A stretch of DNA of 33,237 nucleotides. Origin: a bacterium. GTDB taxonomy: Bacteria > Armatimonadota > Chthonomonadetes > Chthonomonadales > Chthonomonadaceae. Positions 3,077-26,470 of the stretch are shown here, one piece after another. The stretch covers positions 1 through 33,237 of the forward strand of contig JAJZFJ010000061.1 of the NCBI GenBank assembly GCA_021805395.1, in the 5' to 3' direction. Position 1 is the stretch's first letter, and every line of letters begins with the position of its first letter. A program made the position numbers and the translations under genes. The notes below the pieces were generated by a model that was not told the DNA's origin, did not search any database, and saw nothing but the letters and a program-made list of their open reading frames with translations.

Positions 3077-3578
3077 TTATTTTGGAATTACTTTCCAATA
3101 TATACTTTGATTAGCTTGCATAGAAACAACTCTAGGATGGCTATCTATAGCTTTAATTTTCTGTGCCAGCTTGGTTTGGATATCTACGATTGACGGTTGT
3201 CCTTTATTAATGTACTTAGGGTTGTCTCTTAACTCAAGTTGAAGAGCAACCCGTATCCGATTACAGCGAAAAACTTTTTTCGCAAATTGCTGTTCCTCAG
3301 GGGAGGTGTCATAAAAAAGAAGCTGGCAACATTGCAGCCAGACTGTCAAACACCTTATCGGCAATTTCGTTATGTAGATCAGAGATAGGATGTGCTCTAT
3401 CACGCCGATAATCTTTTAATTCAATGAACCAGCATATATTATCTGGAGAAATTGCAATAAGAACTACAGCTTTGATTCCGTTACGCATCTTTGACCATTG
3501 ATTCCTGTAGAATGACCAATCATCATTTTTAACAACTTGCCAATTATCAGGAAAGAGGAATTGTAGATATTTCAACAA
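3077..3578 (-). pseudogene. PD-(D/E)XK nuclease-like protein, frameshifted
   Basis: Two overlapping frames join into one protein of about 166 aa. The first runs from TTG at 3578 to a TGA at 3309-3311; the second runs to 3077. Removing one T from the T6 run (A6 at 3313-3318 on the plus strand) gives a continuous reading through PASFYDTSPEEQQ. The N-terminal half resembles small restriction-endonuclease-like proteins: a strand KAVVLIAIS (residues 36-44), then WFIELKDYR with E53-x-K55, the E-x-K part of a PD-(D/E)XK site. Where such proteins usually carry the catalytic Asp (AVD-hydrophobic) this one has Val39, which would inactivate it. It lies 15 bases after the ATPase gene on the same strand, so they were probably one operon. 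The start is uncertain; an ATG at 3591-3589 is in another frame. Confidence 0.6.
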
Positions 3579-3593
3579 AGATTTCAGGCATCT

Positions 3594-4639
3594 TTAATAA
3601 GCTGTACTGAGAATTCGATCTGATTGTGCTAATTTTTCATCAAGCGAAACGATGGGAATTAAATCTGTTAATTCGGTTCCCAGGGAGATTTCATATTGAT
3701 TAGCAGTTCGACAAAAGCTGAAGTAGTTCGTGGTTATTTCATGGAGTTCAGAGCTGGTAGATTGTAACTCAATTTCTCTTATAAGAAATAGACTGTGTGT
3801 TGCAATGAAGACTTGAAGACCTGCTTTTGAGAGATTAACAATGCAATTGGCAATCACCCTGATAAGTTTAGGATTGAGATTTGCATCTGGTTCATCCCAA
3901 AAAAGGAAGCCATTGCTATGAAGAGCACCTGTCGCTATCAATCTTGCTAACATTCCTAATTTGCGATATCCCTCAGCTACTAATCCCATTTCCATTTTGC
4001 CATCATCAGAACGCAAATAGAATTTTCCATTTTCTAAAACCAGTTTACCACCAATTGCTGCTTCAATAGGTTCTAGAAGTGTTGAGATAGCAGACTCTCG
4101 GGGTTCTCTCTGAAGTGGAGAACCTAATTGGATACATGTATCACGCCATGTTTCATCAAATTCAAGATAGTGCCCATCATAAATTGATATAAAGTTGGGA
4201 TAGATCGACAGTAGTTCTTTGGTTGGAAGATAAATGGGAAAGGATTTTATCCATTCTAAGGGTAGACGATCTACATACACTTCAGATCTGCTTTGCGTTG
4301 CAAAATGGAATGAGATATTCCAAGCAGGATGTGAGAAAAACAATGATACCTCACATCTTTCTCTTCCTCTTTTTCTTGTGACAAGACGGCCTAATGATTC
4401 TGGTTTGAATACCCCACCAATTTTTCAGAAATTGAATTTTGCAGAAGTGATTTAGTCGGTGCAGGGCGCGCAATAGATTGCGTATTGTTTGAGTTGGCAG
4501 TAATCACAGAATGAAGTAGTTTAAGAAGATGTGTCTTGCCGGCACTATTTTCTCCAATTATTATATTAAGATTACTGGAAAATGATAATTCAGCATCAGA
4601 GAACACTGTAAAATTTTTGATTCTGATTTGCTTCAGCAT
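3594..4639 (-). pseudogene. ABC/OLD-like AAA ATPase (AAA_21 type), frameshifted
   Basis: Restored length is about 348 aa. The N-terminal frame (ATG at 4639) has the SMC/OLD-type opening IKNFTVF and Walker A GENSAGKT at residues 29-36, then goes out of frame and ends with a TAG at 4391-4393. The C-terminal frame carries FLFWDEPDANLNP (Walker B and D-loop) and VFIATHS (switch His). Adding one G to the G4 run (C4 at 4412-4415 on the plus strand) joins them smoothly through LVGVFKPESLGRLVTRKRG. No TOPRIM domain follows, unlike GajA or OLD; the partner nuclease is a separate gene just downstream. Such ATPase plus nuclease pairs are typical of phage-defence cassettes (inference). As written the gene is broken; a sequencing indel cannot be excluded. 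Confidence 0.75.
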
Positions 4640-4815: not shown

Positions 4816-6318
4816 CTATGTCAGGAGATCCTGAACCCCTCTCTCCATCTCTTCAATTTCTGTATCTGTAAGTTCAGCATAATCCCCGCGCTTTCGTTTC
4901 GATAGTTTGCCGCTATTTTGAAGAAGAAGCCTGGCTAACAGATGAGCTCTTCTGTCAGGCATATCTACAACGTTTTTAATCGTTTCCAGCACTCTGTCAA
5001 ATATTGCAAGAAACTCAAGCTCTTGCTTCAAGTCGATGCGTATAGCATCTTCTAAACACTCATACAGGAATTCGGCATGCAGTGTCAGGTCAGGAAAACG
5101 GTACAGATCCACAGTATTGTTATGAATTACCATCTCGCCGCCTGCAGGCAGTTCCCAGTTAATAAACTCTAATATGGACTGGGAAAAGGAGTTTAATATA
5201 TTGTAATACTTATCAATTTTGCGGTAGATCACTGCACTAATCGGCACAATAATTCCCGGTGGAGTATATTCACAGCGATTCAGTATTGAATGAATCAGAA
5301 AACGATGCAGCCGTCCGTTCCCGTCTTCGAAAGGATGAATGTAGACGAATGCGAAGGAGCATACAGCAGCTATAATAACAGAATCCAAGTGAGAAGATAA
5401 CAGCTGTTTGGTTAAATTAATCCAGCCCGTCATCAGATAGGTAACGTCATCAGGTCGGGGACATATGTAATGCACATCTTCCTGATACTGAGGATTTGTT
5501 GAACCCACAAAATTTTGAATGGTTCTGTAATCATTAGCATGGTATCTTGGTTCAACAATAGCCTGCTGTAGTTGAATGAGGTCGTGTTTATGAGCAGGAT
5601 TGAAACTGGAGATTGATTGCAAAGCAGACACATATCGCTGTTGTCGAGAGGCAGAAGGCTTCTCACCCTCAATTGCAAAGGTGGTACGTGTCTCTTGAGT
5701 ATATAAATAACTTACAGCGCGCATCACTTCTACGCTGGAGTATTCTGCAGCAGCAGATTTAGCTACATCAGATAAGTTCTTAGAAATCATCTGCTCCAAT
5801 TTGATGGTTTTTCGTATTACTGGACACAGATGGATATTGCCAATGAGATTATTTCGTATCCGATACCGTTTTGAGTTGACCGATTTGGATACAAAATGGA
5901 ATTTTTCATCCAGTACGTCTACATAGTTGCCAGAAGATGCATCTTCAATATCAAGCTTTTCACCTACAAACGTCTCATACAGGAACCATGTCCTGCGACT
6001 ATAAGCTCCTGTCGGTTCAGCTAGTACCCATTTTTCAATGGCTGCTTTATCAATTTTTCTCAGGCTGGCAATAATGACATTCAAATCAAGAGGTTCATAT
6101 CTAAGTGCAAACCGAAGATTACCAAGTGGTGTTCCGTCCGTATTATATTGTAGTGGATAGTATTCAACTTTATGGAATTCAGTTATTTCCGTTTTTCTGC
6201 TTCCATGGATAACGTAACTGAGTGTATGAGGTTGTGGAACTTCAAGATGGAATATGGAATGCAGAAATACCTGTCCCACAGGGACTGGATTATTAGGGAA
6301 ATGATGACTCTTCAACAC
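4816..6318 (-). CDS. Fic family protein (probable AMP-transferase) with N-terminal inhibitory motif
   Basis: Fic-domain enzymes usually transfer AMP from ATP to a target hydroxyl. The full core HPFEDGNGRLHR lies at residues 328-339, with catalytic His328 and the phosphate-binding DGNGR. TFAIEG at 213-218 fits the inhibitory-helix pattern [S/T]xxxE[G/N]; its position before the Fic core makes this a class II Fic, which holds itself inactive through the Glu (E217). The length, 500 aa, leaves about 150 C-terminal residues, probably helical or winged-helix, for target or DNA contact. The GTG start at 6318 is favoured by AGGA four bases upstream. It is intact, unlike the two genes after it (gap 176 bases, same strand). 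Targets are unknown. It may be a toxin-like or regulatory protein in a defence island. Confidence 0.9.
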   Translation of the reverse strand: MLKSHHFPNNPVPVGQVFLHSIFHLEVPQPHTLSYVIHGSRKTEITEFHKVEYYPLQYNTDGTPLGNLRFALRYEPLDLNVIIASLRKIDKAAIEKWVLAEPTGAYSRRTWFLYETFVGEKLDIEDASSGNYVDVLDEKFHFVSKSVNSKRYRIRNNLIGNIHLCPVIRKTIKLEQMISKNLSDVAKSAAAEYSSVEVMRAVSYLYTQETRTTFAIEGEKPSASRQQRYVSALQSISSFNPAHKHDLIQLQQAIVEPRYHANDYRTIQNFVGSTNPQYQEDVHYICPRPDDVTYLMTGWINLTKQLLSSHLDSVIIAAVCSFAFVYIHPFEDGNGRLHRFLIHSILNRCEYTPPGIIVPISAVIYRKIDKYYNILNSFSQSILEFINWELPAGGEMVIHNNTVDLYRFPDLTLHAEFLYECLEDAIRIDLKQELEFLAIFDRVLETIKNVVDMPDRRAHLLARLLLQNSGKLSKRKRGDYAELTDTEIEEMERGVQDLLT

Positions 6319-24659: not shown

Positions 24660-24702
24660 TGCTTTAGCATTCAGGCATATTGAATGTCTGAATGCTAAAG
24701 CA
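24660..24702 (+). repeat. strong intergenic stem-loop
   Basis: TGCTTTAGCATTCAG (24660-24674) and CTGAATGCTAAAGCA (24688-24702) are perfect reverse complements. GCAT/ATGT inside extends the stem to 19 bp with one G-U and a 5-base loop ATTGA. On the minus strand it is followed by CACAATTTTTC, an intrinsic-terminator-like tail, though no minus-strand gene ends here. It lies between the methyltransferase and Rpn-like genes. Confidence 0.65.
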
Positions 24703-24748: not shown

Positions 24749-24762
24749 AAGAGGATCCTCTT
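24749..24762 (+). promoter_or_regulatory. palindrome covering ribosome-binding site of the Rpn-like gene
   Basis: AAGAGGATCCTCTT is a perfect 14-bp palindrome whose left half holds the only good Shine-Dalgarno sequence (GAGG, nine bases before the TTG). Folding could hide the site and lower translation; binding by a dimeric protein is another option. Confidence 0.45.
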
Positions 24763-24763
24763 C

Positions 24764-25912
24764 TTGAATAATAACTCTTCAGAAGACATTACCAAAGTTA
24801 GAGAGATGTTAGACAGAGGATTGATCTATCTTTTGCAATATCCATTGCTTTTGAAACAGCTGTTACTTATGGCAGATATCGATCTGGCAGATCGGTTGGA
24901 TTTCACAACGGCAAAGCTAATGGAAGGCACCCTCGTTCCCCCCGATTTGCAAAAGCTTGAGAGCGATTTGATCTATGAGGTTAACTATGCTTCAGAGAAT
25001 GGTACAACTGTTACTGTCTATCTCATGCAAGAAAACCAGACGAATCCAGATGATGAGATGAGTTTTCGAATTCTCTGTTATATGGTGGAGTTTTGGAGGA
25101 GAAAACAGGCAGAAGTAACGAAGAAAAGGAAGCGAAGCAAGAAGCATGCTATCATTCCAATCGTGTTTTATGTTGGTGACCGGAAATGGGAGATGAAGCC
25201 ACTTGTTGATTGCATGGATGTTCCAGCAGAGCTTCACATGTATGTTCCTCAGTTCCAGATTCTATATATTAATTTGCAGTCAATAAGTGATGATAAGTTA
25301 GCATCCACACCCTTAGGTGCTGCCCTCAGGATAACGAAAGATGCGAATTCGGACACGTCCAGATTTGAAGAAGTAGTTGCTTCAGCACTAACAAGCTTCG
25401 AGCGCCTTCCCATTGAGGAAAAGAGTAAGTATGAAGTTCCAATAATTCAATACGTAATTAATGTGGTACAAAATAAACGCTCTCTCGAAGAGGAAGACAA
25501 GTTGTATAATATAATGGAGAATGCTTTATATCAGCAGAAAAAGGGGGTAATTAAAAAAATGGCAATGACACCTGCTGAATTTTATACCCAGAAGGGGATG
25601 GATGAAGGCAAGAAGCAAGGTCTGTATGAAGGTATAAAACAAGGGTTACATGAAGGTAAGAAACAAGGTCTAGACGAAGGTAAGAAACAAGGTCTAGACG
25701 AAGGTAAGAAGCAAGGCTTAGATGAAGGTATAAAGCAAGGACGAACAGCTGAAGCTCTGCGTCTTCTGATTAAATTGTGTACAAAACGATTTGGTAACCC
25801 CACACCTGCAACCCTCGCTAAAATTAATAGTATTCAGGATCCCGAAGAGTTAGAGGACCTATGTGAACGGATAGATGATGTGAAAGGATGGTATGATCTG
25901 GTCGGTATTTAG
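24764..25912 (+). CDS. Rpn/YhgA-like PD-(D/E)XK nuclease family protein with C-terminal EGKKQGLD repeats
   Basis: 382 aa. The N-terminal domain matches the Rpn (recombination-promoting nuclease)/transposase-31 type: LIYLLQYPLLLKQLLLM, SDLIYEV with D68, VYLMQENQTNP with E90-x-Q92, then MSFRILCYMVEFWRR and IIPIVFYVGDR. D68 and E90-x-Q92 make a plausible PD-(D/E)XK site. Residues 280-327 are six copies of an 8-mer [DYH]EG[KI]KQG[LR], probably a helical linker. A C-terminal domain (ALRLLIKLCTKRFGNPTPATLAKI, ending in an aromatic WYDLVG) is typical of DUF4351-like tails. The start is TTG with a palindromic ribosome site. Members act in RecA-independent recombination or phage defence; function here is inferred. 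Complete and intact. Confidence 0.82.
   Translation: MNNNSSEDITKVREMLDRGLIYLLQYPLLLKQLLLMADIDLADRLDFTTAKLMEGTLVPPDLQKLESDLIYEVNYASENGTTVTVYLMQENQTNPDDEMSFRILCYMVEFWRRKQAEVTKKRKRSKKHAIIPIVFYVGDRKWEMKPLVDCMDVPAELHMYVPQFQILYINLQSISDDKLASTPLGAALRITKDANSDTSRFEEVVASALTSFERLPIEEKSKYEVPIIQYVINVVQNKRSLEEEDKLYNIMENALYQQKKGVIKKMAMTPAEFYTQKGMDEGKKQGLYEGIKQGLHEGKKQGLDEGKKQGLDEGKKQGLDEGIKQGRTAEALRLLIKLCTKRFGNPTPATLAKINSIQDPEELEDLCERIDDVKGWYDLVGI
25601..25744 (+). repeat. tandem 24-bp coding repeat, six units
   Basis: Six in-frame 24-base units such as GAAGGTAAGAAACAAGGTCT code for the EGKKQGL-type octapeptide. Inner copies are almost identical at DNA level, so copy number could vary by slippage without shifting frame. 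Confidence 0.85.
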
Positions 25913-26188
25913 GACAGTTCGTGCTTAGCGGTCTCTGATTTCTTGACATTGCCTGAAAATGATTTCAAGTACGAATAAAAACTAGCCAGAAGACTCAGGT
26001 GCGATAAAGATCGATTGCGTTGGACTCATCATTTTTAAACTAACTTAAAATTATTAGATCGAAATGGAACAGCTGCTGTAACGCGGCTACTTATCATATC
26101 AAAGCCAATGTAATACATGCTGGAATCTAACGTTGGAGTTGGGTAATTGCATACTTTGGTGCTAACTTTTCTGACAGGATAAGAAGAA

Positions 26189-26470
26189 TTGGTAATTAAT
26201 CAGGTAATGACACCCGCAGAATTTTATTTTCAGAAAGGCTTCGCCGAAGGTAGAAAACAAGGCTTCGCTGAAGGTAGGAGACAAGGTAGGATACAGGGGA
26301 GATTAACACTTGTTAAACGAATTCTAATTAAATTTGGCACGAAGCGCTTTGGCATACCCACTGATGTAGAGCTGGAGAAGATTAATCAAATAATGGATCC
26401 AGCACTCTTAGAACAACTATTCGATCGAATGGACGATGTGAGCAGGTGGTCTGATTTAATATCTGCTTGA
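26189..26470 (+). CDS. detached C-terminal domain of Rpn-like nuclease, probable remnant
   Basis: 93 aa matching the end of the gene at 24764: VMTPAEFYFQKGFAEGRKQG against AMTPAEFYTQKGMDEGKKQG, then ILIKFGTKRFGIPTDVELEKIN and a final DDVSRWSDLIS. It has only two or three repeat units and no nuclease part; an in-frame TAA lies just upstream of the TTG start. The 276 bases between the two genes show no recognisable nuclease sequence. It is therefore either the leftover of a decayed second copy, or an independent small protein that could bind the full-length partner through the shared tail. GGATAAGAAGAA could serve as a poor ribosome site. Confidence 0.65.
   Translation: MVINQVMTPAEFYFQKGFAEGRKQGFAEGRRQGRIQGRLTLVKRILIKFGTKRFGIPTDVELEKINQIMDPALLEQLFDRMDDVSRWSDLISA

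Follow-up and report, generated by a model that had tools for sequence, protein, structure and literature searches.

The question raised by this locus is whether a stand-alone copy of the tail of an Rpn nuclease, encoded directly behind the gene for the nuclease, is an antitoxin of that neighbour or serves another target. The DNA analyzed (the window, 33,237 nucleotides in full) comes from an Armatimonadota bacterium, and the features of its rpn locus are collected in Table 1.

Table 1. Features of the rpn locus in the window
Feature	Position	Strand	Basis or remark
Full-length Rpn-type nuclease gene (RpnL-like), 382 aa	24764..25912	+	PF04754 and DUF4351 matches
Predicted internal ribosome site AAGGGGGT and ATG 25559 of an intragenic tail protein (RpnS-like)	25541..25561	+	
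Six 24-bp units (twelve 4-aa repeats)	25598..25741	+	Repeat searches and direct reading
Tail core (DUF4351) of the long gene	25742..25909	+	Pfam profile match
Spacer	25913..26188	+	No nuclease-domain trace, terminator-like site or plus-strand promoter-like site
Stand-alone tail gene (rpnS-like), 93 aa from TTG or 87 aa from ATG 26207	26189..26470	+	

The long gene, which starts with TTG, was matched by PF04754 over residues 40-211 (E 5.4e-23; 82.1 bits against a gathering cut-off of 21), which bears out the Rpn-like nuclease proposed in an earlier note on this DNA. The C-terminal match to DUF4351 (PF14261; residues 324-379) reached 25.0 bits, exactly the cut-off, while the score against TIGR01784 of NCBIfam (26.1 bits, E 6.8e-6) lay below the curated cut-off of 52.1, a shortfall which bears on subfamily naming only and not on Rpn membership. 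Both residues of the E-x-Q motif of the PD-(D/E)XK fold, E90 and Q92, were invariant among 6 relatives, and E90 was invariant in 25; we take the two to be catalytic. The product is a predicted PD-(D/E)XK-type nuclease whose activity we infer from these features. Its AlphaFold2 model had a mean pLDDT of 88.4. None of the PADLOC models matched the long protein, and searches of solved-structure profiles and folds with both the long and the small protein returned nothing significant, RpnA_S (PDB 7TH0) being absent from the results; rows with E above 0.08 or with middling Z were taken as chance.

Exactly six octapeptides, each made of two 4-aa repeats, were counted in frame between the nuclease and the tail, as the earlier note had read them. 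Tandem Repeats Finder reported a 24-bp array at 25601-25730 (score 162), and the same register was returned by a second repeat search. The 4-aa repeats were modelled inside one continuous helix (AlphaFold2, residues 270-343 of the long protein), and the number of tetrads differs among paralogs.

A start within the long gene, suggested by the earlier note to lie near its methionine codons at 25560-25566, was looked for, and a candidate was found: AAGGGGGT at 25541-25548 stands ten bases ahead of ATG 25559, with a second ATG at 25565. This is the best anti-Shine-Dalgarno match ahead of any in-frame start within the long gene, with a predicted duplex of -11.8 kcal/mol compared with -5.8 kcal/mol at the gene's own TTG. 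An equally strong site anywhere in the gene arose in only 2 of 100 synonymous codon permutations. Among 30 complete tail-bearing long ORFs from the same genome and its phylum, the strongest internal ribosome site with a start fell 0-45 residues ahead of the repeats in 26, against 5.4 expected by length. Codons were also permuted within each gene, since the amino-acid sequence is itself purine-rich there; these permutations gave a mean of 15.4, so that much of the signal stems from the amino-acid sequence, and reached a maximum of 20 in 100 trials, so that the protein sequence alone does not account for the strength of the internal start. The predicted start agrees with experiments that demonstrated an intragenic RpnS start for both E. 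coli and C. difficile (Zhong et al. 2023, PMC10327210).

Upstream, the palindrome AAGAGGATCCTCTT is real (24749-24762), and the earlier note had proposed it as a possible control over the ribosome site. This role found no support: four perfect palindromes of at least 14 nt occur in the window, which is at chance level (mean 1.75, range 0-4, in 20 mononucleotide shuffles), and none was found near the start of the paralog C66. A 19-bp inverted repeat (24660-24702; 95% complementary, 5-nt loop) also lies upstream of the rpn gene. Around the pair of genes, four promoter-like sites were identified, all on the minus strand and against 7.1 expected, and no terminators were found.

Other candidate defense genes were seen elsewhere in the window. 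On the minus strand, PADLOC reported the candidate defense pair HEC-02 at 3077-4639, which looks frame-broken: the HEC-02B ATPase is split over two ORFs (4391-4639, profile positions 1-70; 3594-4343, profile positions 97-341), and the match to HEC-02A is a short ORF (3309-3578), with which a further ORF (3077-3403), outside the PADLOC scan, overlaps. Adjoining it on the same strand, positions 4816-6318 encode a protein of 500 aa that scores 565 bits against the candidate defense model PDC-S24 and less against SoFic.

The small ORF begins 277 bases past the end of the long gene (26189-25912), on the same strand and across a gap of 276 nt, and is a second copy of what follows the nuclease domain in the long gene, beginning a few codons ahead of the internal ATG. 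Its start is 71% identical to the long gene's tail at the DNA level over 84 bp, and outside the repeats 38 of 61 aligned residues are identical, so the duplication described in the earlier note was confirmed. The ribosome site of the small gene itself is weak (-4.1 kcal/mol at TTG 26189); the next in-frame ATG is at 26207. Its AlphaFold2 model (mean pLDDT 87.9) consists of a helix (residues 9-54) and three shorter helices. DUF4351 was matched at E 0.012 and 16.0 bits, below the cut-off of 25, and PADLOC gave one match (E 0.0088) in which no stretch passed on its own. The possibility that the ORF is a decayed full-length gene was rejected, as no nuclease domain was found in the spacer (tblastn with two Rpn proteins, best E 0.14).

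The duplication was local, because the small tail and the tail of the long gene are sisters in a tree of 69 tails (support 97/88; only 60 columns). The best match of the small protein in the 101 genomes searched, its own and 100 relatives, was likewise its neighbour (54% over 76 aa), the identity to the tail of the paralog C66 being 34%. No close strain carrying the window locus was found in this set.

Identity between the two tails by codon position was 47, 46 and 27 of 61 codons, and the NG86 dN/dS over these codons, which lie outside the repeats, was 0.17 with a 97.5% bootstrap point of 0.40. When the long copy was allowed synonymous changes only and the small copy evolved neutrally except for stops, under a uniform mutation model, 2 of 3000 simulations retained as many as 38 residues; the protein sequences of both copies have thus been constrained since the split, and purifying selection has acted on the core of the small gene since duplication. 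The small frame is still open at a DNA divergence of 34% (66% identity over the alignable core), a result also seen in 13% of neutral simulations over 64 codons. The earlier note had presented a separate gene for the tail as a variation on tail products made from internal starts. The gene is real, constrained and not degraded; it is not a novelty, since tail genes downstream of rpnE (ypaA) and rpnC have already been described (Zhong et al. 2023, PMC10327210).

The window arrangement belongs to this published kind, a stand-alone tail downstream of an rpn gene. As in E. coli RpnL/RpnS, a PF04754 nuclease is joined to a tail whose first helix holds 4-aa repeats, and an internal start (in the window a predicted one) lies ahead of the repeats; as in rpnE-ypaA and rpnC a same-strand tail gene, a local duplicate, follows directly downstream. 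In E. coli, binding of the tail protein blocks the full-length one; DUF4351 tail genes occur elsewhere, and some species have a separate RpnS that carries the annotation DUF4351 (Zhong et al. 2023, PMC10327210). The window differs in several respects. Its tail core is DUF4351-like, whereas the tested E. coli tails have no match to the DUF4351 model at E up to 0.01, a limit at which PF14261 matches 31 of 49 tails of the aligned set. The two window tails are far more diverged than the E. coli pairs and stand seven tetrads apart. Unlike other stand-alone DUF4351 proteins, the small protein scores below the Pfam cut-off (16 bits against 25).

Matches to the small protein were found in 26 and to the long protein in 28 of the 101 genomes. 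Among 114 loci (many of them overlapping), nine pairs of a long gene with a separate tail were identified. Besides the window these were C189 and C213 of the same genome and G063:C54, G063:C105, G023:C28, G003:C203, G005:C154 and G036:C530. Both C189 and C213 resemble the window in having a long gene with octapeptide repeats and a downstream tail-only ORF, but belong to another Rpn subfamily with a recent duplication, and the tail-only ORF of C213 is broken at its 3' end; the C189 long gene resembles TIGR01784 (E 9e-11, below cut-off). No Rpn-type match was obtained for the long genes of G063:C54 and G003:C203, and none in NCBIfam, the sole library used for these two, for those of G036:C530 and G063:C105. 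Because several long genes have no Rpn family match, the wider set is best described as tail-bearing putative nucleases, not all of them PF04754.

The tails were within-locus sisters in seven of the nine pairs (the window, C213, G063:C54, G063:C105, G023:C28, G005:C154 and G036:C530); those of C189 share one clade with those of C213, and those of G003:C203 are not sisters. Pairing is not universal, because none of 59 loci in named genomes, searched with 2.5-kb flanks, had two tails (46 had one). Seemingly lone tail ORFs in related genomes mostly have nuclease-like sequence directly upstream, and most of them look like broken or truncated long genes. In G036:C104 two near-identical tail ORFs (2064-2321 and 3448-3888) lie 1.1 kb apart, and the first is preceded by no more than part of a nuclease-like stretch.

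The repeat numbers of the two tails do not agree. In the window, 13 xxxG tetrads were counted in the long gene and 6 in the small gene, a difference of seven. In the other pairs the counts (long gene/stand-alone tail) were 12/14 for C189, 19/4 for C213, 9/6 for G063:C54, 7/7 for G023:C28, 4/3 for G003:C203, 9/7 for G005:C154 and 6/3 for G036:C530, G063:C105 being left out as its stand-alone tail is broken. Thus seven of eight measurable Armatimonadota pairs are out of register; the equal counts of G023:C28 and the non-sister tails of G003:C203 go against one uniform story. The C213 locus (G000:C213, positions 3-784) has a frame-broken 3' end in the ORF with 4 tetrads.

The same was found in E. 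coli. Of 20 rpnE loci, chosen for diversity from spread lists, 17 had both genes, two had the tail gene fused away and one (UTME-10) was interrupted next to an IS2; among nine rpnC loci, seven had both genes. Repeat-region lengths differed at 17/17 rpnE loci, in eight distinct combinations (e.g. K-12 13/17, SA186 45/29), and at 7/7 rpnC loci, hence in all 24 strains and, with the eight Armatimonadota pairs, in 31 of 32. When the 22 distinct combinations (8 from Armatimonadota, 14 from E. coli) were compared, repeats were more numerous in the long gene in 17, fewer in 4 and equal in number in 1 (two-sided sign test 0.007, shared descent not corrected for). Random re-pairing would give 0.50 equal pairs among the eight rpnE and 0.17 among the six rpnC combinations, and none was observed; because zero E. 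coli matches is close to this expectation, the claim is that no matching is kept, not that matching is avoided. One of seven stand-alone rpnE repeat strings was identical to the long-gene string of other strains.

This mismatch matters in the light of experiments on RpnC, in which one 4-aa repeat added to the small protein left RpnC no longer counteracted and matched repeats restored the inhibition (Zhong et al. 2023, PMC10327210). Since a single extra repeat abolishes RpnC inhibition, the neighbour may not be what many of the stand-alone tails counteract. The rule was measured in E. coli RpnC only, with a tail that has no DUF4351 match, and here it may not hold. In that paper we saw no comparison of repeat numbers between stand-alone and neighbouring tails; what we add is that, in two distant phyla, the repeat register of stand-alone tails mostly differs from that of the neighbour.

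The explanation that we prefer, with a confidence that is evenly balanced, is an Rpn locus with an intragenic inhibitor and a duplicated tail that fits unexpanded Rpn forms better than its own neighbour. The locus would be a chromosomal rpn locus whose long gene encodes the nuclease and, judging from E. coli and from the strong internal site, also a short tail protein that restrains it. The tail coding region, from a few codons ahead of the internal start, was duplicated in place to give the 93-aa gene. From the methionine to the core the helix measures 45 residues in the small gene, 45 in the paralog C66 and 73 in the long gene; the simplest reading of these lengths is that the long gene was extended by seven 4-aa repeats (28 residues) once the duplication had taken place, and that the small tail kept the older length. 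The expanded helix would correspond to the one which mediates tail-tail contact in E. coli RpnA. The separate tail is a selected protein and most likely an Rpn inhibitor; it would be translated and bind its target, and its register would fit forms such as C66.

That the small gene simply supplies the neighbouring nuclease with more antitoxin, the mismatch being tolerated in this tail family, is possible though rather unlikely. The higher similarity to the neighbour's tail (54% against 34%) would point to the neighbour as target should repeat number matter little, and the sister position in the tree and a same-strand gap of 276 nt without a terminator-like site also speak for this reading; the 13 tetrads against 6 complicate this simple reading, as do the loss of cross-inhibition with one added repeat in RpnC (Zhong et al. 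2023, PMC10327210) and the unequal lengths in 31 of 32 measurable pairs. That the small gene is a decaying, functionless by-product of tandem duplication is improbable: broken long genes have left several tail-only ORFs in related genomes, the C213 copy is frame-broken and rpnE of UTME-10 is interrupted, but both window copies show the constraint described above (2/3000 simulations) and the small frame is open after 34% divergence, an argument tempered by the 13% of neutral simulations that also stayed open.

In the E. coli strains PSS-11 and GPEC874 the downstream tail gene is missing and rpnE carries a C-terminus of the type usual for that gene, which would reflect either a fusion by recombination between tails or an ancestral state. 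These strains, and the reported loss of the tail gene by fusion with the rpn gene (Zhong et al. 2023, PMC10327210), would suit a sequence reservoir in which tail recombination swaps the nuclease's tail and the antitoxin specificity together, an account that we consider very doubtful here, as 66% DNA identity over the alignable core is poor for homologous recombination and a reservoir would need no open frame of its own.

Returning to the preferred explanation, in which the duplicated tail fits unexpanded forms, a broader proposal would be that stand-alone Rpn tails as a rule are not antitoxins of the adjacent nuclease but archived specificities against other or earlier forms, or agents of tail-tail interference. 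We put this forward as a quite tentative generalization. The core would then be under selection and the repeat register free, and the targets would be paralogs, incoming copies or the ancestral form.

Among phage-defense toxin-antitoxin systems, the Rpn systems form a young class. Since the toxin and the antitoxin come from one gene, the two have to evolve together, a coupling from which a separate tail gene is free. The register mismatch in two distant phyla conflicts with the one-repeat rule, so that the rule is confined to RpnC or else the tail has another target. If the rule is local, the stand-alone tail would be an extra antitoxin. If it is general, the intragenic tail, which always matches, would be the true antitoxin, and most stand-alone tails, that of the window among them in spite of its selected core, would spare their neighbour and serve another or an earlier Rpn form.
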